Virus record (IMG/VR): IMGVR_UViG_3300046534_001250
Coordinates: 1 to 64,000 of that record
Strand: one strand, 5' to 3'
DNA length: 64,000 nucleotides
Origin: a virus
The position numbers and the translations under genes were made by a program. This document shows, one piece after another, positions 2,143 to 25,393 of this stretch (its first letter is position 1; the number at the start of each line of letters is the position of its first letter). The notes under the pieces are model-generated. The model had not been told where the DNA came from, did no database searches, and saw only the letters and a program-made list of their open reading frames with translations.

Positions 2143-3864
2143 ATGGATCTACCCGTTTTTGTATTCAGCGAAGACGACTGTGTACCGTTTCCAGGCACAC
2201 AGATGCTACTCGATTTACCATTAGAACGAGCCAAGCTACTCAAGTCAGCAAGCTTAAGAGAAGCAGCAACTGGCAAATACTCTGATCAAATCGCAATAGG
2301 CTTCTCTGTAAGAGACCCTCGGGTTGTAATGAGTTCTATTGATGAATACTCAACTAGTGTCCATGAAATTGGAATACTATGCAGAGTAGATGAACGAGAG
2401 GAATGTGACGACTTTGAACTCATTCACCTTACTGGTATAGAGCGCATCTACTTACACGATTTCAGAATAATGGAATCACCTAGTACAGACCAGTCTATCA
2501 TCTTAACAACACATCAGCCTGTAAGCGAAGACTTCCTAGAAGCAGAAGAAGCTTTGATTCACGACATGGAAAATCTCTTCAATCTCATTACTGAGAATCC
2601 AAAGATTTATCCTGCGCTATTAATCGCAGACATTCAAGCAACTCAAAGTTTAATCTCAAAGATGAATAAGCTAGCAGACTATCTGCTAGGAAGTCCGCAA
2701 GAAAGAATTAAGTATCTATTAGAAGATGATAACTATGTTCGATGGGATAGTATAGTTACGCTAACCGTAGCTATGGCTGCTAAGCGACCTAAGATGTCTG
2801 GAAAAAAGAAGAAACCAGTTATAAAGAAGCAGCCAGCAAAAGAAATAACTGTCCCAGAGCAAGCTCTGCAGCTTCCATTAGACGAAGACTCTATGCGCAA
2901 CATTAAGCGCGAAGTAAATAAGTTAGAGAACTTGGCCAAAAGCAGTACAGAGTACGCTATGGTTATGGACTACTTAGATTGGGTTGTATCTGTTCCCTGG
3001 AAAAACACATCCTATAAAGACTTTGATCTGTCTAAGCTAAGAGAAACTTTGGATGAGACTCATTATGGTCTTGACGAAGTCAAAGCCCATATTCTAGAGC
3101 ATCTAGTTGTTGAACGACTACGCGGTGGTAACACCGGTACAGTATTATGCTTTGTCGGTTCGCCCGGTACAGGAAAAACTAGTATTGCTCAGCAGATTGC
3201 AAAAGCAACTCATAGACCCTTGCAACGAATTGCATTGGGCGGGCTAAGCGACGAAGCGGAAATTCGAGGTCACCGCAGAACTTACGTAGCTAGTAAGCCA
3301 GGTAGATTTATCACCGGGCTAAAGACCGCCAAAGCTATGGACCCGCTCTTTCTTCTAGATGAGGTCGATAAGATAGCTAAGTTCAAAGGCGATCCCATGA
3401 CAGCGCTTCTAGAGGTCTTAGACCCAGAGCAAAATCATTCCTTCGTTGACAGATACCTAGAGGTACCAGTGAACTTAAGCCAAGCTATGTTCATTTGTAC
3501 CGCAAACAATAAAGCAGACATTGACCCAGCCTTATTAGATAGAATGGAACTGATTGAGTTCCGAGATTACACTCTCGAAGAAAGAACACACATTACAACC
3601 AACTATCTAATGCCCAAGGTATTAAGCTTCTACAAGCTAGAAAGCTTTAATATTGTTTTCGATCCTACGCTGATTGATGTACTGTGTAAAAACAGTATAC
3701 AGATTAGACAGATTGAAAAAGACATAGCAAAGCTGCTTAGGATGGCTGCAGTCAAAATTCATGTACATGGAAGTGAGAGAGTTATCATTGATAGCGATTT
3801 CTCCGACCAAGTACTCAACAAATATAAAAGTAAAAACAAGCCCATTGGGTTTGGAGGACGATAA
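2143..3864 (+). CDS. Lon-like AAA+ ATPase without protease domain
   Basis: This 573-residue protein has a Lon-type N-terminal substrate-binding region (about residues 1-200), a helical linker, and a AAA+ module with Walker A GSPGTGKT at 339-346 and Walker B LFLLDEVD around 402-409. The IRGHRRTYV and GRF-containing segments after Walker A are typical of Lon. Lon is normally about 780 residues and ends in a Ser-Lys protease domain. Here translation stops at the end of the AAA+ module, with GFGGR as the last residues. It could act as an ATP-driven unfoldase or chaperone, partner the phage ClpP at 47264, or interfere with host Lon hexamers. The next gene starts on its stop codon. Confidence 0.9.
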   Translation: MDLPVFVFSEDDCVPFPGTQMLLDLPLERAKLLKSASLREAATGKYSDQIAIGFSVRDPRVVMSSIDEYSTSVHEIGILCRVDEREECDDFELIHLTGIERIYLHDFRIMESPSTDQSIILTTHQPVSEDFLEAEEALIHDMENLFNLITENPKIYPALLIADIQATQSLISKMNKLADYLLGSPQERIKYLLEDDNYVRWDSIVTLTVAMAAKRPKMSGKKKKPVIKKQPAKEITVPEQALQLPLDEDSMRNIKREVNKLENLAKSSTEYAMVMDYLDWVVSVPWKNTSYKDFDLSKLRETLDETHYGLDEVKAHILEHLVVERLRGGNTGTVLCFVGSPGTGKTSIAQQIAKATHRPLQRIALGGLSDEAEIRGHRRTYVASKPGRFITGLKTAKAMDPLFLLDEVDKIAKFKGDPMTALLEVLDPEQNHSFVDRYLEVPVNLSQAMFICTANNKADIDPALLDRMELIEFRDYTLEERTHITTNYLMPKVLSFYKLESFNIVFDPTLIDVLCKNSIQIRQIEKDIAKLLRMAAVKIHVHGSERVIIDSDFSDQVLNKYKSKNKPIGFGGR

Positions 3865-4049: not shown

Positions 4050-4054
4050 GTCTT

Positions 4055-4078
4055 GGCCCCTTACAGGGCCTTTGTTTC
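4055..4078 (+). terminator. weak terminator-like hairpin
   Basis: GGCCC and GGGCC pair around a 6-base loop and are followed by TTTGTTT. The stem is only 5 bp, so termination is probably partial. It sits between the Lon-like unit and the ubiquitin-like operon. Confidence 0.45.
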
Positions 4079-4088
4079 AAAGGCAGTC

Positions 4089-4313
4089 ATGAATTTATAT
4101 TGTATCAATTTAGACATCTGTGGCTGGTTTGGAGAGTTCGCTGATGACAGTGAATTCTCCTGCCCTGTTTGCCACGCTTTAGCTATTCCGCTAGAGAAAT
4201 TAAGAACGGAAAAAGATGAACTTATTAACCAGTTCGTCTTCGCAGAAGCTGACCTCCCTGGTGAATCTTCACAAAGAGAACCAGAAGATCCAATGGAAGA
4301 TTCTGACTCCTAA
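4089..4313 (+). CDS. small CPVC-containing protein upstream of the ubiquitin-like genes (74 aa)
   Basis: ATG at 4089 has AAAGG upstream and is a better start than the TTG at 4053. The N-terminal third has Cys residues at CINLDIC and a CPVC pair, giving a possible four-Cys zinc site. The C-terminus is acidic. It is the first gene of the operon that includes the E2-like, JAMM, E1 and ubiquitin-fold genes. A zinc-ribbon adaptor role is possible but unproven. Confidence 0.65.
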   Translation: MNLYCINLDICGWFGEFADDSEFSCPVCHALAIPLEKLRTEKDELINQFVFAEADLPGESSQREPEDPMEDSDS

Positions 4314-4773
4314 TACTGAAGTCACACGTTTGCGAGCCTTGTTAGGCGTTTCACAAACTTACTATTCCAAAACAAAATCAGGGTTGTTGACCTCCGCAAA
4401 GATGAGGCAATTGCAAACAGTGGGTATTCACCCCACTAAGACCCACTATCATAAAGGACTGGTGAGTACAGTACTCTATACCAAGGGATTAAACCTTGAT
4501 CTGTCGGCTATTGACGCACACATAAGGACCACTGATAGCGCTGAGATTAACAACCTTCATATTGAAGCTAGCATACTTCAATACTTAGCTTTTAATAAAC
4601 AAGGCGTCTCTACGAAAGAAGCATTAAAAGAAAGAAACAAACGACTATGTGTAATCGCTAAAGTAGCTTTACCTTCCTATGTTTGGGAAGAGCTTAGATC
4701 CACAAAAACGTTTATGAAAAACACAGCCCCTTATGTTGGGCTGTACAAGGCATCACTCAATGAATCTAAATGA
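4216..4773 (+). CDS. hypothetical protein in ubiquitin-like operon (up to 185 aa)
   Basis: A basic protein with no recognised domain. Its 5' end overlaps the previous gene by 98 bases if the ATG at 4216 is used; a later start such as GTG at 4261 is possible. The 3' end overlaps the start of the large E2-like gene. The overlaps suggest co-translation with the modification genes, so it may be an accessory or substrate protein. Confidence 0.6.
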   Translation: MNLLTSSSSQKLTSLVNLHKENQKIQWKILTPNTEVTRLRALLGVSQTYYSKTKSGLLTSAKMRQLQTVGIHPTKTHYHKGLVSTVLYTKGLNLDLSAIDAHIRTTDSAEINNLHIEASILQYLAFNKQGVSTKEALKERNKRLCVIAKVALPSYVWEELRSTKTFMKNTAPYVGLYKASLNESK

Positions 4774-7066
4774 CAATTTCAACTTCATCTTGCCATACTC
4801 TATTGGCGGCAATGCTTCAAATCTATCTCTGGAGGCATCTAGAAACTTTGCTACGTATTACTCTGGATATAGAGGATGGTGTGCAGAGAATATATCCATT
4901 GACGAAGGCCCTGACAGATACTCTTACACGTCGCGGTCAAGCCTTACACTAACAAGAAATTGGTTAGTTCCAAGATTTGAAATTGATACTCCAACATGGT
5001 TTGTCAGATGCTCAAGTATTGAAACTTGGTCTAGAAGAGAAAGCGTAATTTCCAACGCTAGTTTGCCTGCAAAACACAATAGAGATTTACCATTCTTGTG
5101 GGTAATTCCAAAGCCTGCTGTAGTTGAAAACGGATATTCATATGCTGACTCAGAAACAATTGCGTACTTAGAAAGCCCACTGTTTTCTATAGCAGTCGCA
5201 GGGGATCCACTAGAAGGATCGCAGGGGCTTAACGGTACTAATAACATTAGGCATCAGCGCCACCAGCATGGCGTCTTGCGCATCTTTTCCAAAGAACAAG
5301 CAAGCGAATTGATTCCAGAGTTAGAGAACAAAGTCCCTACGATTAAAATCACAGGGCTGACCAGAGCTACTCCAGCTAACCCAAAGCCTAGTTATTCACT
5401 CAAGAAGCAAACCAAAGCACAAATCTTATCTGGCCAACGGCTATTCAGTTATATCCAGATAGTTACTGTCGTCGCAAACGACGGAACAGAAACTACAGAA
5501 AACTTGATTTCAGTAGGAATAGTTGGAGATGAAATACTCTTGAACTCCAGATACTCCGCTATATGTCTTCTAGCATTGATTGAATTTATTACATCAACAG
5601 AGTGGATAAATGATATCAAGTACCCGAACCAGGCTATTGTTCGAAACTTTTCTAGCGATCCAGAGTTCTGTCTATATTCTCAACCAACTGTGCCGTTTAA
5701 TATCAGCAATATCCCTGACACCAGCCACACGTCATTAAAAAACAGAGAGGCTAGCGATCTTACAGTCTTGAACTCTAGCGAAAGTGTTACTCGTGCACCG
5801 TTTGCCAGAACTTATTTGGCGGCAGTAAACAAAGTGGAATCTTACAGAGATCAAATTAAATCAATAGAGCAGGAAAGGAAGAGACACGAACAATTGATCC
5901 TTGAACACACCAGTTATATTGCAGAACGTACGCGTAAGATTGATCGGCTACAGAAAGATATCCTGACCGATAAAATACTTGTCAGAGAGGAACGACAAAA
6001 GGCTTTAATTGCTTCAGAAGCAATTCTCAAGCAAACTGATATCGTTGAAGTACTGACTCCGCAACTAGATGGACTTAAGGAGCTATTTAATAGCAAGTTA
6101 GAAAAATATACAGCTGAAGGAAGTTCTGTTCCTGCACTGGATAAGTATTTGTCCAACATGGGAATCAAGATTACTAAGTTGACATTCTTTGATGCTGAAG
6201 GCGAAACCATCAAATCACAAGACGTAGATGTAACCGGCATCCTTATGAATAGGTATGCAATCAAGAGTATGTCTTTTGAAACAACCCGACCTATGAACAT
6301 CAACGTACTGGATACTAACAAGCAAGTAGTTGATACTAGAGTCGGTGGACCATACCGTGTACGTCTCAAGCGATGTGCTGTACAGGAACGCTTTCAAGTA
6401 CGGATTAATGCATTAAGTCATGACAGTATTATAGGCATCGAACCTGTAACAAACACCGGCATCTTTTACGCAAAAGCCCATCCTCATACTGGCTGTTCTG
6501 CCTTGAAAAGAGATGATTATGTATCAGGGCTTGAAAGTCTTGTAAGCCAAGATATTGAACCATGTCTAGGCGAAGCCGAAGCAGCACTAGCTACTGCTAG
6601 CAAAACAAATAACATCAAAATGATTTTATTTGCAATGCTATCTTGGCTCAAGAATGCATACAAAGACGATCAATGGGGCAGGACCGCAGCCTGGTTTCCT
6701 AAGCCACGTTACATCGCTAATATGCTATTAGGAGAGGAGCTTGCTGCAGCAAAAATAGCTGTTTCTAACAATGGAATAAGCCTAATAGCTTATGCCAAAA
6801 TTGCATATTCAACAGACTACAGTATAACTTGGAGTCATGATGGAGCAATTGTGTGCGAAGAAGGCATAAGCTACGGTAAAGACCAATACAAGACTCTCTT
6901 ATTTTTCAAGAATAAAGAAGAGGCAAATTACTACATGCGTACACGATCTCAAGATTGGTTATCGTATTATCATAAGTACCATACTACAGATTGGTGCTTA
7001 GAAATTCTTAATGATTTTCCAGCCGAAACAGAAACACAAGAACAAATAGAAGAAATAAATGCATAA
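4760..7066 (+). CDS. large protein with E2-like (ubiquitin-conjugating) C-terminal region
   Basis: A 768-residue protein. ATG at 4760 with AAGG upstream is preferred to ATG at 4733. Residues about 370-450 are highly charged and look like a coiled coil. The C-terminal region has a beta-strand-rich stretch, then HPH at 574-576, then PCLG with Cys602, followed by a helix and a W/F-rich end. An HPH motif ahead of a Cys-Leu-Gly is the pattern of the prokaryotic E2-like fold, in which the Cys carries the ubiquitin-like protein as a thioester. The next three genes encode a JAMM protease, an E1 and a ubiquitin-fold protein, which supports the call. The N-terminal 370 residues are not recognised and may bind the target. 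Direct family evidence is limited to the motif, so the E2 assignment is an inference. Confidence 0.6.
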   Translation: MNLNDNFNFILPYSIGGNASNLSLEASRNFATYYSGYRGWCAENISIDEGPDRYSYTSRSSLTLTRNWLVPRFEIDTPTWFVRCSSIETWSRRESVISNASLPAKHNRDLPFLWVIPKPAVVENGYSYADSETIAYLESPLFSIAVAGDPLEGSQGLNGTNNIRHQRHQHGVLRIFSKEQASELIPELENKVPTIKITGLTRATPANPKPSYSLKKQTKAQILSGQRLFSYIQIVTVVANDGTETTENLISVGIVGDEILLNSRYSAICLLALIEFITSTEWINDIKYPNQAIVRNFSSDPEFCLYSQPTVPFNISNIPDTSHTSLKNREASDLTVLNSSESVTRAPFARTYLAAVNKVESYRDQIKSIEQERKRHEQLILEHTSYIAERTRKIDRLQKDILTDKILVREERQKALIASEAILKQTDIVEVLTPQLDGLKELFNSKLEKYTAEGSSVPALDKYLSNMGIKITKLTFFDAEGETIKSQDVDVTGILMNRYAIKSMSFETTRPMNINVLDTNKQVVDTRVGGPYRVRLKRCAVQERFQVRINALSHDSIIGIEPVTNTGIFYAKAHPHTGCSALKRDDYVSGLESLVSQDIEPCLGEAEAALATASKTNNIKMILFAMLSWLKNAYKDDQWGRTAAWFPKPRYIANMLLGEELAAAKIAVSNNGISLIAYAKIAYSTDYSITWSHDGAIVCEEGISYGKDQYKTLLFFKNKEEANYYMRTRSQDWLSYYHKYHTTDWCLEILNDFPAETETQEQIEEINA

Positions 7067-8225
7067 AGTAATTGGAACACAAACGATCGTACCTGTTGTA
7101 GGATCTAAAGCTGCTTTAATGATGGACGATACATTGTATCGTCAAACAAAGTATCTAGTTGATTCTCTCAAGACTGACGAAGTCCAGTGGTGGCACCGCG
7201 TCGAGAAAGTAACAGTTGAAGGAGCCACGTATTACATGCTGAAGGATTTGATTATCCCTCATCAAGAGGTACATGCTGCCACTACAGAAGTCGATGGGCA
7301 AAACCAGTACAAGGCTTACCAAGAAATCAAATCTCGCTTTACCCAAGAAGGCACAACAGACACAGAGTCAATGAACAAGTTCATTGGTGGCCTTACTTGC
7401 TGGAGCCACAGTCATGGAAACATGACCGTGGGGCCTTCGCCGCAAGACGAAGCACAGTTTAAGCTGTTCATTGAACAGCAGAGCAAAGATGACTTTGATC
7501 AGATCTTCCTTATGATGATCTGGAACAAGAAAGACGAAATCTATGCTCTCATTTATGATCCTGAAACATGCTTTATGATTGAGAATATTCCTCTGATTGT
7601 ATACTATCCAAATATCGAAACCGACTATATTGACGACGCTGTCGCCAATAAGGTCACAAAAAAAAAGCAAACGTATACACCAGTCAGTCAAACAACCTAC
7701 AGTGGGAAGAATGCCAAGGCTGGGAAGAGTACTACGAACAGCAAAGTCAACAATATGGCTCGGCGTATTCCTAGTGTGGGCGGACTTACGGGCAAGATTC
7801 GGACTCGCGCCTTTCAGCTGGGACAAATTGTCACTCAGTTCAGCAACCGACCTTCCGAACTGACAGAGTTAATGGAGATCTTCACGACTCATCTTGGCCA
7901 TAATGCCAATGCAATTCGTGCTCTCCGAATGCTTATCCACGGTGACTACAAGAACAAGGACCAGTTGAAAGCTTTTGAAAACTGGGACGAATCAGATTAC
8001 GAATTTGAAGTGATGGCGCTAGACAACCTTCTTAACACCGAATGGATTCCTAGCAATGGAATTATTGTACGCTCTCTAGATGTTGTGTCGTTTCTAACGA
8101 AACGACCTTCTCCCATGATTGGTTATGTTATTGACAACTTTTATGAATACTACGATGCTGTATACGAAGAAGCAGCAAAAGCAGTTCCTCAGCTAGAGGA
8201 TGGCGATCATGTCCGCAGTCTATAG
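7059..8225 (+). CDS. JAMM/MPN-domain metalloprotease
   Basis: A 388-residue protein whose first half is a JAB/MPN domain. His117-Ser-His119, Ser127 and Asp130 form the complete zinc-binding motif H-x-H-x7-S-x2-D, and upstream Glu residues can supply the general base. Enzymes of this family cut ubiquitin-like proteins from targets or trim their C-termini. The second half (about residues 200-388) has no recognised domain and starts with a Lys/Thr/Ser-rich linker. The start overlaps the stop of the E2-like gene and the end overlaps the E1 gene, so the three are probably translated together. Confidence 0.85.
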   Translation: MHKVIGTQTIVPVVGSKAALMMDDTLYRQTKYLVDSLKTDEVQWWHRVEKVTVEGATYYMLKDLIIPHQEVHAATTEVDGQNQYKAYQEIKSRFTQEGTTDTESMNKFIGGLTCWSHSHGNMTVGPSPQDEAQFKLFIEQQSKDDFDQIFLMMIWNKKDEIYALIYDPETCFMIENIPLIVYYPNIETDYIDDAVANKVTKKKQTYTPVSQTTYSGKNAKAGKSTTNSKVNNMARRIPSVGGLTGKIRTRAFQLGQIVTQFSNRPSELTELMEIFTTHLGHNANAIRALRMLIHGDYKNKDQLKAFENWDESDYEFEVMALDNLLNTEWIPSNGIIVRSLDVVSFLTKRPSPMIGYVIDNFYEYYDAVYEEAAKAVPQLEDGDHVRSL

Positions 8226-8904
8226 ACCTACCTTCCTCAGGGCTGCCGCATGGGTAGGCCCGGCTATGTTGACCGACGTTGTTACTATCGTTGGTTGCGG
8301 AGCGACAGGATCATACATCGCAGTTGCTTTAGCCAAGATGGGATTCACCCAGTTCTGTATCTACGATTCAGATTTAGTAGAGCCACACAACTTGCCAAAC
8401 CAAGAGTATGACTCTCGGCATGTTGGAATGCTCAAGGTTGACGCTCTTGAGCTTAAATTGATGGAGTTTAATCCAGATATTACAGTCACAAAAAACAACG
8501 AGTTCTTCACCTCAGATACAGTCATTTCAGATTTCGGCCCAGTCATTTTGACTACAGATACCAATAGTAGTCGTGTCGAAATCATGAATGTATGTAAAGG
8601 AAATTTGATGGTTGACCACGTATTTGAAACCAGACTTGGGTTTCATCACGGCGAAGTTGCCATCGTTGATAATCATGATTCAGAATCCGTTGAAAAATGG
8701 CTGAATACAGTAAAGCCAGATGATGAAATACCAGATGGGCCTTGCAATGAGCGTACATGTACTACTCTAGTAATGATGATTGCCGCGTTTACCGTGCATC
8801 AAATCTGTGAGAAATACAGTGCAGCTACCAAAGATGAAAGATGGATATATAACAAACGAACTCTGATTCAAATGAATCCGAGTCTTACCGTACTCAGTAT
8901 GTAA
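8209..8904 (+). CDS. E1/ThiF-family adenylyltransferase
   Basis: A 231-residue protein with the Rossmann nucleotide-binding motif GCGATG (residues 29-34), the acidic segment DSDLVEPHNLPNQ that follows it in ThiF/MoeB/E1 enzymes, and a downstream Arg/Lys-containing loop. Cys179 and Cys184 in PCNERTC are candidates for the catalytic or zinc-linked cysteines. Such enzymes adenylate the C-terminus of a ubiquitin-like protein and may take it over as a thioester. ATG at 8209 is chosen because AGAGGA lies at proper distance. The ubiquitin-fold gene follows after nine bases. Confidence 0.88.
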   Translation: MSAVYRPTFLRAAAWVGPAMLTDVVTIVGCGATGSYIAVALAKMGFTQFCIYDSDLVEPHNLPNQEYDSRHVGMLKVDALELKLMEFNPDITVTKNNEFFTSDTVISDFGPVILTTDTNSSRVEIMNVCKGNLMVDHVFETRLGFHHGEVAIVDNHDSESVEKWLNTVKPDDEIPDGPCNERTCTTLVMMIAAFTVHQICEKYSAATKDERWIYNKRTLIQMNPSLTVLSM

Positions 8905-8913
8905 GGAGAAACA

Positions 8914-9129
8914 ATGGTTGTTTCACTAGTAATTTTCCCAGGCCGTGGCCTTGATGGACACGTCGTTCTTGAAGCAGGCGCAAGTTTGCAAGACCTCGTA
9001 AACAAGCGTGACCTTTCCGGTCGTAGCCTCTGCGTCAATGGCGAAGAAATTCCAAGCTCTGCTTGGGAATCTACCATTCTTGAAAGCGGCTGGGAAGTCG
9101 CTGCTCTGAGCCCTTCTAAGGGCAACTAA
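8914..9129 (+). CDS. ubiquitin-fold (ThiS/MoaD-like) protein
   Basis: A 71-residue protein with AAGGAG just upstream. The segment VNGEEIP followed by W, T, L and a final beta-strand EVAAL matches the beta-grasp pattern of ThiS and related ubiquitin-like proteins. The C-terminus is Ser-Lys-Gly-Asn rather than Gly-Gly. Adenylation and conjugation usually need a terminal Gly, so either the last Asn is removed (possibly by the JAMM enzyme) or the chemistry differs. It is the last gene of the operon, followed six bases later by a strong terminator. Confidence 0.75.
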   Translation: MVVSLVIFPGRGLDGHVVLEAGASLQDLVNKRDLSGRSLCVNGEEIPSSAWESTILESGWEVAALSPSKGN

Positions 9130-9135
9130 TAGTAC

Positions 9136-9162
9136 GAGCCCCTTCGGGGGCTCTACTTTTTT
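9136..9162 (+). terminator. rho-independent terminator closing the ubiquitin-like operon
   Basis: GAGCCCC and GGGGCTC pair around a TTCG-type loop and are followed by TACTTTTTT. It separates the modification genes from phoH. Confidence 0.92.
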
Positions 9163-9341: not shown

Positions 9342-10271
9342 ATGTTACAAATCACAGACCTAACAGTTTCGCCACAGTTTGTTGATCAGATGTATTCAGA
9401 GGGAACTGTTAAGAAAAACGCTCCATCTAATATTCCAGTCAACAGCTATGTCTTGTTTAGGGATGAAACCAATCCAAAGCATACTGCTTTAGCTAGATAC
9501 TTAGGCGATAACACTTGGCAACGTATTGCATCTAATTCCAGTTTGCAAACACAAGGAATTTCTCCAAAAGATGCTTACCAATGCGCATTTGTTGATGCGC
9601 TAAAAGCTCCAGGAACACTACTCAACGTAGCAACTGGTGCGGCTGGAACAGGTAAGACTCTGCTTGCGATGGCACACGCTATTGACCAATGGATGACGAC
9701 TCGTAAAAAGATTATCTTGTCTAAGCCTACCTCTATGGTTGGTAGCGGATCCGCTTTTGGGCCTGTGCCTGGTGACATTGAACAAAAGTATGCACCTTAT
9801 CTGGCTTCTTACGATATCGTATTGAAGAAAGTGTTAGGAGACTCTTACACAGGTTTTGTCAATTCAGCTATGAAGAATGGAGACATCGAGTTTGTGCCAA
9901 TTGAATTGTCTCGCGGTTGCACTTATGAAAATGCAACCTTTATTCTCGATGAAGCACAGAACCTTTCATGGCATGAGTTAAACACCATCGTCTCTCGTAT
10001 GGGTCAAGGCACAAACCTTATTATCCTAGGGGATCTAAATCAAATCGATACAGATTCTTACAAAACAGATACAGGACTATGGAAGTTTCTACGAAGCACT
10101 CCGTTTAATAAGAGCAATATCACCAGTTCAATTCAGCTAAAGACTCAATACCGTAGTCCGATTACACAATTGGTCTCAGATGTAAACGATTGGATTATTG
10201 AAGATGCAAAGCAAGCAAGAAACAGTAGACGCGATCTTCCAGCAACTAACAGCACATCCGACGAAGGATAG
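9342..10271 (+). CDS. phoH: PhoH-like ATPase
   Basis: A 309-residue P-loop protein. Walker A is GAAGTGKT (99-106) and Walker B contains LDEAQN (Asp203-Glu204), followed by the PhoH signature of a TxxSRMG segment and GDLNQID. Phage PhoH proteins are ATPases, some with RNA-helicase-like links, and the physiological role is not settled. The first 80 residues are an extension with no recognised fold. It starts a new transcription unit after the terminator at 9136. Confidence 0.92.
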   Translation: MLQITDLTVSPQFVDQMYSEGTVKKNAPSNIPVNSYVLFRDETNPKHTALARYLGDNTWQRIASNSSLQTQGISPKDAYQCAFVDALKAPGTLLNVATGAAGTGKTLLAMAHAIDQWMTTRKKIILSKPTSMVGSGSAFGPVPGDIEQKYAPYLASYDIVLKKVLGDSYTGFVNSAMKNGDIEFVPIELSRGCTYENATFILDEAQNLSWHELNTIVSRMGQGTNLIILGDLNQIDTDSYKTDTGLWKFLRSTPFNKSNITSSIQLKTQYRSPITQLVSDVNDWIIEDAKQARNSRRDLPATNSTSDEG

Positions 10272-12874: not shown

Positions 12875-13455
12875 TGGAAGGCAGGAAAGATTTTGAAAAG
12901 ATTGCTCAGCAGATATTGCGTCAGGCAATGGATGATTACATTAAGTTGCAACATCCCAAGCAACGACGCAAGAAGTATCTGAAGGAGGCATGGTGGAGCG
13001 CTAACGATCTCTTTTTTGATCCATCCTTCAGGCTCGACAACCTAGAAGACGACAACAATCAAAGTATGTCGCTAACTGACTTCGTACAGGTAGCTGCAGA
13101 CAGAGAGAACGTCGACCTACAAAGACTGCGAGACTACTTAACCTCCACTTCTAAAGCCTACTGGGCAGAGCGCAATATGAGAACAGTAGAAATACCAAGC
13201 GACGTAGTTGTTGAAGGACATGCTTACGCTGTGTCTTACAACAAGGAAGATGCCTACGCCATAGACTATGACGAGAAAACCATCTGGCTGCCAGCATCGG
13301 CGCATAAGACGACGCAAGAAGAACAATTTTGTATTGCCGTCATGGAGGCAGTAGCTTTTCATACGGAAGCTAAGATGTCTCAGAAGGCTAGAAAGCAATT
13401 AGCTCAAGGCTGGTTCCGAGCACTCAAGGTAAACAACTGTTTTGTCGGAGACTAA
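12874..13455 (+). CDS. hypothetical protein (193 aa)
   Basis: The first 100 residues are basic and helical. The second half has an alternating strand pattern ending in EEQFCIAVMEAVAFHTEA, which faintly recalls degenerate metallopeptidase helices but has no HExxH, so no enzyme call is made. Its stop codon overlaps the stop of the convergent gene at 13452. Confidence 0.6.
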   Translation: MEGRKDFEKIAQQILRQAMDDYIKLQHPKQRRKKYLKEAWWSANDLFFDPSFRLDNLEDDNNQSMSLTDFVQVAADRENVDLQRLRDYLTSTSKAYWAERNMRTVEIPSDVVVEGHAYAVSYNKEDAYAIDYDEKTIWLPASAHKTTQEEQFCIAVMEAVAFHTEAKMSQKARKQLAQGWFRALKVNNCFVGD

Positions 13456-13880
13456 TAGCTCCACAACTCAAAGCCGTCATCAGAGTCTTTCCAGGCTTGG
13501 GTGACGGCTCTTCCACTGTATAGTTTATCTGCGTGGTGGATTATAAGCTGGGCACCAACGTCATCGAGAGCTTGTTGTTCTGGCAAGTCTTTACCAAGAT
13601 AGTCAGGACCTCTGATAAAGAACTTAGGCTGTAGCCTATGGATGAGTCTCGAAGGATCTTCTTCGTCAAAATGGACTACGTTACAAACGTATCTACAACT
13701 CTCCATCACTACGATTCTACTGCTTAGTCGAATCGCACAGTCACCATACTTTGCTTGTTGGTGCCTGTCACCATTTAAACCAACAGTCACGTCACCAAAT
13801 TTACTAGCGAACTTCAATAGCTCGACGTGTCCCTCATGAAGGACGTTGAACGTTCCTGAAACTAATACTTCAGCGCGCAT
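13452..13880 (-). CDS. HldE/RfaE-type nucleotidyltransferase
   Basis: A 142-residue cytidylyltransferase-fold protein. The N-terminus reads VLVSGTFNVLHEGHVELL, with the nucleotide-binding HxGH motif at His15-His18. Later FFIRGPDYLGKDLPEQ and the SGRAVTQ region match the C-terminal domain of HldE, which makes ADP-heptose-type sugars. Family members use ATP or CTP and a sugar phosphate. ATG at 13880 has GGAGG five bases upstream and is preferred to ATG at 13901. The gene is a single reverse-strand insert: its stop overlaps one neighbour's stop and its ribosome site overlaps the other's. A matching HldE-like kinase lies at 34617. Confidence 0.82.
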   Translation of the reverse strand: MRAEVLVSGTFNVLHEGHVELLKFASKFGDVTVGLNGDRHQQAKYGDCAIRLSSRIVVMESCRYVCNVVHFDEEDPSRLIHRLQPKFFIRGPDYLGKDLPEQQALDDVGAQLIIHHADKLYSGRAVTQAWKDSDDGFELWSY

Positions 13881-13891
13881 AGGAGCCTCCA
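13881..13891. promoter_or_regulatory. shared ribosome binding site for two divergent genes
   Basis: AGGAGCCTCCA contains GGAG on the plus strand and, on the minus strand, GGAG from the complement of CTCC. The plus site serves ATG 13892 and the minus site serves ATG 13880. The two start codons are only 11 bases apart, so the promoters must lie inside the opposite genes and the 5' ends of the messages must be complementary. Confidence 0.75.
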
Positions 13892-14641
13892 ATGGCAACA
13901 ACCATACTTAGTATAGCACTATTTGCTATAACTATTATTGCTATAGTAGTAGTCTACAGCAAGGCAGTCTCTGCTAACACGTCACGGCTTGAGATTGAAC
14001 GCCTGACCAACAGCATTGCTATACACGAAAGCAATCAAACTTATAAAGATGGCCGCATCACCCAACTAGCGACGGTCGTCGAAATGAAAGAGGCTCAGCT
14101 CGCAAAGGAGATACTCGCCACCGACAGGATTCGCTTCTTAACCACCAAGGTTATAAGAGACTTGGAGTCGGAACATCAAAAGCTTTTAGCCAACATGCGA
14201 GTTGAAGCAATCAAGGCCGAGAAGGCAATACGAGCTGATGCTATTGCTCGCTCTAAGACTGTCAATCACGGCTTCACGAGCGAGAACTTTGCACCGTTGC
14301 TAATGGACTTCAGTCATAAGGACTTTAGACACATGGGTGATCCGATTGATTACCTTGTCCCTGTAGGAGCTAGTGAGGTACGCGCGGGAACTAAAGATAA
14401 GATCGACAAGGTCATCCTCTTAGATATTAAGACCGGCAAAGCTCAACTAAATAAAGTACAACGGCGTATTAGAGACGCCATTGTTGAAGGTCGAATCTAT
14501 TTCGCCACATACAACACAGATACAAGTAACCTAAGGCTATGGCCAGAGGAAAAAACAGATGGAACTAAATCAGTCTTGGAACTTGAACCCAAGAGCACTC
14601 CCTCCGAAGAAGAATCAATTGCACCTAGTGATGATGCCTGA
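13892..14641 (+). CDS. membrane-anchored Holliday-junction-resolvase-related endonuclease
   Basis: A 249-residue protein with an N-terminal membrane helix (about residues 4-22), a long coiled coil (30-115) and a nuclease-like domain. The domain reads SENFAPLLMDF, GDPIDYLVP, VILLDIKTGKA and then RIRDAIVEGRIYF. This matches the family of endonucleases distantly related to archaeal Holliday junction resolvases, with the Asp and DxK forming a PD-(D/E)XK-type site. The last 40 residues are acidic. Tethering a DNA endonuclease to the membrane could link resolution or packaging to the envelope, which is inference. AGGAG precedes the start. Confidence 0.78.
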   Translation: MATTILSIALFAITIIAIVVVYSKAVSANTSRLEIERLTNSIAIHESNQTYKDGRITQLATVVEMKEAQLAKEILATDRIRFLTTKVIRDLESEHQKLLANMRVEAIKAEKAIRADAIARSKTVNHGFTSENFAPLLMDFSHKDFRHMGDPIDYLVPVGASEVRAGTKDKIDKVILLDIKTGKAQLNKVQRRIRDAIVEGRIYFATYNTDTSNLRLWPEEKTDGTKSVLELEPKSTPSEEESIAPSDDA

Positions 14642-24507: not shown

Positions 24508-24532
24508 CAGGGCTGTGAAAGCAGCCCTGTTA
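24508..24532. terminator. bidirectional terminator between convergent genes
   Basis: CAGGGCTG and CAGCCCTG form a perfect 8-bp stem. It lies between the plus-strand gene ending at 24503 and the reverse-strand patatin gene ending at 24530. T/A-rich flanks on both sides allow use in either direction. Confidence 0.75.
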
Positions 24533-25393
24533 TCCTAACTTACGCCTGTTGATCCAAGCTCGCTTACCGGCTTCGACACGCCGCTTATCAATTTCTGGGC
24601 CGAATTCGAAACTGCCCCCAACATCTTCTATATTATCTGGAGCCGATAGAAATACTTCCATGTCTAAGGCATACTTGTTTAGCCTGGCAATATCATTGTT
24701 TAATACATTTCCGACATGTATCTCAGAAAGCTGCTCGATTACTCCAAGAGCACCTTTCTTCCACTTGCCATAAGTACGATCCTCTACGCGGTAAGGACTG
24801 GCCCCGATCGCATATAGCCTCGTGCATGTTTGGCGAGCTCTTTCAGGCAACGGTGGGTAAACAGCAACGCCACCGCCATCCATGTATCTCCAACCTTCTA
24901 CAGGCTCATGATAAGGCAGGATGGCACTACTGCGCCCAATCCACATCAGTTGATCATCGATACTAAGCTCATCAATTCGAATTAACTTGGCCCCAGGAAG
25001 ATATTCAGGATCGATCCCACTAGGCGCCCAACTACTCCTGTCTGTAACCAATACCCAGCATTCTACCACGCAGGGATTTTCTTCTAAGTAGGGACGTAGT
25101 CGCCGCATAAAGACATTAAGACTCTTCCACCCATTTAAGGGGTTGATGTCGTTAACTCTCTGGACATCTCGCTCCTTAACGATATTGTTACTAAATTCTT
25201 CCAGCGCACTCATGGCATTTGCAGCAGCAAAACGAGCAGCAGTAGCTCCAATACTATTGCCAACAAATCCGTCAGGATGCTTTCCAGTGATAGCCAAGGC
25301 TTCATCAATAGCGCCCTGAATCTGCGGAAGCTCACTTCTTCCTCTGGCTCCACCACCACTAATTATAAACCATACGTTAGGGCGCTTCATCAT
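24530..25393 (-). CDS. patatin-like phospholipase
   Basis: A 287-residue protein with the patatin oxyanion motif SGGGARG (residues 12-18), the nucleophile motif GNSIG with Ser47, and a later DGGG holding the catalytic Asp of the Ser-Asp dyad. The order and spacing fit the family, whose members hydrolyse acyl chains from phospholipids. No signal peptide is seen. It is the last gene of a reverse-strand cassette behind three probable virion genes, and its start overlaps the stop upstream. It might act on host membranes during entry or lysis, or be carried in the virion; this is inference. Confidence 0.85.
   Translation of the reverse strand: MMKRPNVWFIISGGGARGRSELPQIQGAIDEALAITGKHPDGFVGNSIGATAARFAAANAMSALEEFSNNIVKERDVQRVNDINPLNGWKSLNVFMRRLRPYLEENPCVVECWVLVTDRSSWAPSGIDPEYLPGAKLIRIDELSIDDQLMWIGRSSAILPYHEPVEGWRYMDGGGVAVYPPLPERARQTCTRLYAIGASPYRVEDRTYGKWKKGALGVIEQLSEIHVGNVLNNDIARLNKYALDMEVFLSAPDNIEDVGGSFEFGPEIDKRRVEAGKRAWINRRKLG

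Follow-up and report, generated by a model that had tools for sequence, protein, structure and literature searches.

In bacteria, ubiquitin-like conjugation is familiar chiefly as an antiphage defence or as plasmid cargo. Could a phage carry such a machinery of its own? The question is raised by a 64,000-nucleotide stretch (hereafter the window) of IMG/VR virus record IMGVR_UViG_3300046534_001250, the 82,033-base record of a tailed phage for which no close relative was found in the collections searched. Four consecutive genes on its + strand encode a 768-aa E2-like protein (4760-7066; an alternative start at 4733 gives 777 aa), a 388-aa JAMM/MPN+ peptidase-like protein (7059-8225), a 234-aa single-domain E1/ThiF-like adenylating enzyme (8200-8904) and a 71-aa ubiquitin-like protein (Ubl) of the ThiS-type beta-grasp kind with the C-terminus SPSKGN (8914-9129). 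The E2-like and JAMM genes overlap by 8 bases and the JAMM and E1 genes by 26, and 9 bases separate the E1 and Ubl genes. Since the four genes share a strand and overlap or nearly touch, in the order given by a preliminary description of this DNA, they likely form an operon (4760-9129). We propose that the set is probably a phage-encoded cassette for reversible Ubl conjugation that acts inside the infected cell.

The JAMM and E1 proteins were scored against hidden Markov models (HMMs) from which the window had been left out, and earlier scores from models containing it were discarded. Among the 134 open reading frames (ORFs) of the window, the JAMM model matched the 388-aa protein at E=2e-18. 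This protein carries the Glu ... HxHx7Sx2D metal site of JAMM/MPN+ metallopeptidases: the previously described residues His117, His119, Ser127 and Asp130 are exact (HSH...S..D, 7407-7448, + strand), an upstream glutamate, E41, can be added to them, and all five are invariant in an alignment of 18 relatives. BLASTP against the JAMM protein of a prophage of Allochromatium humboldtianum DSM 21881 (L075) gave 2e-8. A Pfam search returned no match for the window protein, and PADLOC returned JAB at E=0.02; in two of the more distant relatives described below (L099 and L101), the JAMM proteins have Prok-JAB matches below the cut-off. The C-terminal region of about 200 aa is unique to the window phage. 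By these sequence comparisons, the 388-aa protein is firmly homologous to the JAMM proteins of a wider phage family.

The same holds for the 234-aa protein, whose sequence is firmly homologous to the E1 of that family. It matches the Pfam family ThiF (PF00899) at E=2.2e-23, with 83 bits against a cut-off of 28, and the E1 model built without the window at E=4.6e-29 among the same ORFs; BLASTP against the L075 E1 gave 4e-17. The two candidate catalytic cysteines described earlier as Cys179 and Cys184 both exist, but counted from the first ATG they are C182 and C187, and only C182 (8743-8745, + strand) is invariant, in alignments of 6, 18 and 12 sequences. The protein thus combines the Rossmann domain and the invariant candidate catalytic cysteine that mark the E1 superfamily. 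Its best relatives in the PDB are 9egb and 9egc, labelled 'ThiF-type', with MccB also among them; ThiF and MoeB models are among its best family matches, and PADLOC E1-E2 models match it as well.

Do the four genes belong together? Single-sequence IMG/VR scans with the window E2-like, JAMM and E1 proteins found no relatives, nor did tblastn of the E2-like protein in phages. The bridge was a gut phage contig, MT835544 (L003), in which weak matches to JAMM and E1 lie next to each other and the gene order is 78-aa beta-grasp-like protein, 491-aa coiled-coil protein with PQPHIDDYQCFRG, JAMM, E1. JAMM alignments built from this contig led to 21 and then to 76 viral loci. In about 75 IMG/VR loci, Ubl, E2-like, JAMM and E1 genes are neighbours in that order; the rest are loci in which one component was not recognised, together with the Allochromatium prophage, whose genes stand in another order and comprise two tandem ThiS-like genes, E1, JAMM and the gene of a coiled-coil protein of 351 aa that contains HPHILGNDEPCLG. 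No second copy turned up when 210 genomes of the order to which Allochromatium belongs were searched. A scan with an E1 pair added four contigs, of which L099 and L101 hold all four genes, L097 holds the Ubl, the large protein and JAMM, and L098 holds the large protein, JAMM and E1; the protein encoded next to the JAMM gene contains HPHISGSGSVCWG in L099 and HTHIGTEGKICWG in L101. Altogether about 80 further phage contigs, spread over several unrelated groups, carry the four-gene set. Because it recurs there as neighbouring genes, the earlier assignment of E1, JAMM and Ubl roles to parts of a single Ubl system is upheld.

The gut-phage cassettes have additional regular members. Nearly every one has a reverse transcriptase gene after E1 (10535-11689 in L014, and the equivalent place in 72 loci); the L014 protein matches RVT_1 at E=1.5e-19, and its nearest PADLOC model is RT_II-A at 2.4e-47. 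About 70 gut-phage loci also have a gene for a protein of 129-143 aa ahead of the Ubl gene. Both genes are missing from the window phage.

The least familiar part of the set is the 768-aa protein. Its N-terminal region (aa 1-345) is followed by a long helix predicted to form a coiled coil (aa 347-453; 5798-6118, + strand), modelled by AlphaFold2 with a block of predicted local distance difference test (pLDDT) scores of 85-93 over about aa 381-440, and by a C-terminal module. This module contains the HPH motif at aa 574-576 (6479-6487, + strand) and the candidate catalytic Cys602 of PCLG (6563-6565, + strand), both exactly where the preliminary description had placed them. They align with HPHI/NPHI and with the invariant cysteine of relatives, including HPHISGSGSVCWG of L099, and reproduce the catalytic cysteine after an HPN-like motif that is typical of UBC/E2 proteins. 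Shuffling the protein 20,000 times produced the pattern [NHQP]PH...C[LMIWF]G in 5 cases, and of the 33 ORFs in the window with 150 aa or more, 1 contains it. When 635 ORFs of at least 200 aa were scanned in the loci of relatives, 54 of the 56 that bear the motif were the E2-like proteins. The protein had been described as far larger than known E2 domains and perhaps of an undescribed architecture. This holds in part: the N-terminal stretch of about 345 aa has no relative, but the relatives, too, are 351-655 aa long with a coiled coil ahead of the E2-like module, so that a large protein with a coiled coil is the rule in this family. In the models, a long helix precedes the C-terminal module in the window protein and the gut proteins alike.

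Is this protein an E2? Conservation within the family suggests so. The histidine and cysteine of the motif are kept in all 65 distinct gut-phage relatives, and they are the two invariant positions of E2-like alignments of 46 and 53 very diverse sequences. The best Pfam match of the L099 protein is UQ_con, over the cysteine region, although it lies below the cut-off (E=0.022; 14.8 versus 27 bits). When the window C-terminus was compared with L099, the alignment reached z=4.3, none of 500 shuffles was as good, and HPH and Cys were aligned within a span running from a strand region through HPH and CLGEA/CWGNA to YSTDY/YSSDY; the match to L098 was weaker (4 of 500 shuffles). The gut family in turn matched a profile of L099, L101 and L098, with no shared sequences, at P=2.7e-4, with a score of 33.9, whereas the best of 30 column-shuffled controls reached 20.0. 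A first result for this comparison (P=6.2e-6) was dropped, L075 having been present on both sides. Finally, a confident model of the L014 relative (pLDDT 92.3) consists of a helix, two strands, a helical insert, two strands, the HxH/Cys segment and three helices, which we read as the UBC order with an insert.

Several observations weigh against an E2 role. No E2 family in the curated sets scored above its cut-off for the window protein or any other member, and Pfam, NCBIfam and PHROG searches gave no match for the 768-aa protein. The structure prediction and UBC fold search envisaged in the preliminary description gave a divided answer: the AlphaFold2 model of the window protein was poor (pLDDT 46), and while the L014 model shows the UBC-like order of elements, Foldseek returned nothing significant from the PDB for it, and none of the 50 matches listed has a UBC fold. 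Against viral models, it matched two uncharacterised phage proteins. The window protein gave no significant match to the family profiles and HMMs, and the distance from HPH to Cys is 26 residues in it versus about 6 in most relatives. In an unforced MAFFT alignment, H, C and G fell into the columns of the motif for 0 of 20 shuffles but also for 1 of 11 unrelated proteins, and for that reason the alignment is not proof. The gut E2-like profile had no significant match to Prok-E2_B and Prok-E2_D proteins, and no solved structure was matched when the E2-like alignments were used as profiles.

The missing fold match in a confident model, the lack of any E2 family above cut-off and the failure of the family HMMs to find the window module all speak for an alternative in which E1, Ubl and JAMM form a module of the SAMP or CysO/Mec+ kind, while the coiled-coil protein serves as scaffold, adaptor or substrate and its HPH and PCLG have another role. 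We consider this rather unlikely. Against it stand the histidine and cysteine, the two invariant positions of so diverse a set of proteins, encoded next to JAMM and E1; it also sits poorly with UQ_con as the top Pfam match of L099 and with the order of strands and helices around the L014 motif. On motif, gene context and weak homology, the 768-aa protein likely has the E2 role first proposed for it, although the family and fold matches that would place it among known E2s are missing.

A second question concerns the modifier. The 71-aa protein had been described as ThiS-like, and a match to ThiS (PF02597) does exist, but it falls short of the Pfam cut-off (E=0.012; 16.5 versus 22.5 bits). Against a gut-family Ubl profile that excluded the window sequence, it scored P=0.026; a 99% profile match to another alignment (A7) was dropped, since that alignment included the window sequence. 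Its VNG and C-terminus line up with those of relatives, the aligned tails reading KGN in the window, KEGG(R) in L097, KGG(M) in L101 and KGA(A) in L099. The L097 protein, which ends in KEGGR, is above the ThiS cut-off. From its sequence, the 71-aa protein is plausibly a beta-grasp modifier.

Its tail, KGN, lacks the C-terminal Gly-Gly, a point that tells against conjugation. Gut-family Ubls typically end in K-x-D-N-A, with variants such as KADGG, KADGA and KADSA followed by short tails, and some of them (L018, L035, L051, L058 and L070) have a long C-terminal extension. Since these ends vary and none of the distinct members terminates in GG, departure from a terminal Gly-Gly is the rule in the phage family. 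The same tails bear on a sulfur-carrier pathway, in which E1 would thiocarboxylate the Ubl to supply sulfur for a phage metabolite or a nucleic-acid modification and JAMM would trim the carrier. ThiS leads the Pfam matches of the window Ubl, weak as that match is, and ranks high among those of its relatives, and the ThiF/MoeB models that match E1 point the same way. Sulfur carriers, however, require a C-terminal Gly-Gly, which neither the window Ubl nor any distinct gut-family member offers, and the constant coiled-coil partner with HxH and Cys has no place in the scheme, which we judge quite unlikely.

The terminal asparagine of the window Ubl and the presence of MccB among the PDB relatives of E1 would also suit a peptide-modifying set in which E1 adenylates the C-terminal Asn to yield a modified peptide. 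This is very improbable, as the modifier is a beta-grasp-like protein of 70-84 aa and not a short peptide, the JAMM partner is constant, and the relatives' Ubls terminate in A, R, K and other residues. That the set is a decayed, functionless remnant of a defence cassette, as the strong divergence of its sequences might suggest, is scarcely credible given intact, overlapping ORFs that keep all active-site residues, as in the roughly 80 other contigs.

We therefore return to reversible Ubl conjugation, for which thioester transfer, E2 activity and isopeptide bonds are inferred from the families named above. E1 would adenylate the C-terminus of the 71-aa Ubl and then hold it as a thioester on Cys182, from which it would move to Cys602 of the E2-like module at the C-terminus of the 768-aa protein. 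The coiled coil and N-terminal region of the latter may dimerise it, select targets, or both. Inside the infected cell, an amino group on one or a few target proteins would then receive the Ubl, and the JAMM protein would take it off again; in relatives with a C-terminal Ubl extension, JAMM may also trim this extension and so mature the modifier.

How does the set compare with known systems? In the accessible portions of Iyer et al. 2006 (PMC1779556), prokaryotic operons with Ubl, JAB, E1 and E2 are described, and the only phage cases are tail-assembly Ubl/JAB pairs. The operons of row 6d there and the PRTRC-type cassettes likewise have separate, adjacent Ubl, JAB, E1 and E2-like genes on mobile elements. 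The row 6d E2s lack the classical His, whereas in the E2-like proteins described here a coiled coil is present and an HxH precedes the Cys. The window E1 scored 22.6 bits against a PRTRC_ThiF cut-off of 144.75, and there was no Prok-E2_D match. The Bil antiphage system (BilABCD; PMC11354881) has Ubl, E2, JAMM and E1 in one operon, as does the window. Its Ubl has two domains, in contrast to the single domain of the 71-aa protein; its E1 comprises inactive and active adenylation domains (IAD and AAD), in contrast to one 234-aa domain; and its E2 carries the CEHH pattern (C-x5-E-x-H-x4-H, PMC11354881), which is missing from window residues 602-615. Bil is carried by the defending host, the window set by the phage. 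PMC13373217 cites further bacterial ubiquitination-like operons, the Bub pathways (Gong 2025, Ye 2026).

Type II CBASS shares E1, E2 and JAB chemistry through Cap2 and Cap3, consistent with the PADLOC E1-E2 matches. Cap2 is a fused E1-E2, however, whereas the window has separate E1 and E2-like proteins and a dedicated Ubl gene, and no CD-NTase match was found among the operon genes. By its defining sequence features, then, the window set is of none of the Bil, PRTRC and CBASS types. The lambdoid TAPI/TAPK tail-assembly proteins have a phage Ubl and JAMM in common with it (the Ubl/JAB pair of PMC1779556); unlike them, the window set has an E1 and no NlpC/P60 match, and its neighbours are not tail genes.

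A set of similar composition is found in the crAss-like phages cr111_1, Dulem virus 41 and bajarodcaudo virus 1 and in cultured Flavobacterium phages FpV (L004-L007), where it adjoins primase and uracil-DNA glycosylase genes. It comprises a protein whose N-terminus we read from the sequence as ubiquitin-like, a second protein in which C[LTI]G stands 14-20 residues after HSH, and proteins of the JAMM and ThiF kinds; their annotations are hypothetical, metalloprotease or thiamine biosynthesis. The E1s match the gut-family E1 profile at 1e-20 to 9e-18, while the E2-like proteins have no sequence match to the gut family; judged by sequence, these are analogous sets with related E1s.

Gene surroundings bear on where the cassette would act. 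The window operon lies between genes for a Lon-like AAA protein (2143-3864) and PhoH (9342-10271), and the crAss-like sets lie among DNA-metabolism genes. We therefore favour an intracellular role, in host control or counter-defence, over a role in the virion; control of host proteins or counter-defence is the likeliest purpose. A CPVC protein and a 185-aa protein had been suggested as accessories, a suggestion that finds no support, as neither has a counterpart in any related locus. The Lon-like and PhoH proteins have no homologue there either, and for this reason none of the four is counted among the parts.

Other features of the window were recorded in passing. The Lon-like protein directly upstream of the operon has an AAA domain and no peptidase motif, and similar proteins occur in gut phages and in Moraxella phage Mcat3. 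The CPVC protein (4053-4313) is small and rich in acidic residues, and has one CPVC motif. Two ORFs lie on the - strand: one of 149 aa (13452-13901) with LVSGTFNVLHEGH, nucleotidyltransferase-like in sequence and situated inside a run of + strand genes, and one of 287 aa (24530-25393) whose N-terminus, NVWFIISGGGARGRSELPQ, resembles a patatin-like start.

We found no report of a phage-borne E1-E2-Ubl-JAMM set in the full texts searched, which excluded most subscription papers and all preprints, so its novelty is provisional. As a tentative generalization, which may well prove too broad, a complete E1-E2-Ubl-JAMM cassette would be maintained in the early or DNA-metabolism region of several unrelated groups of tailed phages (gut and rumen phages of about 100 kb, crAss-like phages, Flavobacterium phages, a Chromatiales prophage and the window phage), which would use it during infection to tag proteins of the host or of defence systems. 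Its E2s would form a coiled-coil class outside Pfam, and its Ubl tails would carry dipeptides such as Asn-Ala or Gly-Asn in place of Gly-Gly. The Flavobacterium phages FpV, with their analogous set, and the prophage in A. humboldtianum DSM 21881 provide culturable material in the wider group, and make the question directly testable. If the generalization is true, the phage cassette would mirror the Bil, Bub and CBASS systems of bacteria: a virus of bacteria with its own protein-tagging machinery, reversing the picture of antiphage defence. It would also add a coiled-coil class of E2 and non-diglycine Ubls to those known, and would bear on the origin of the eukaryotic ubiquitin system.

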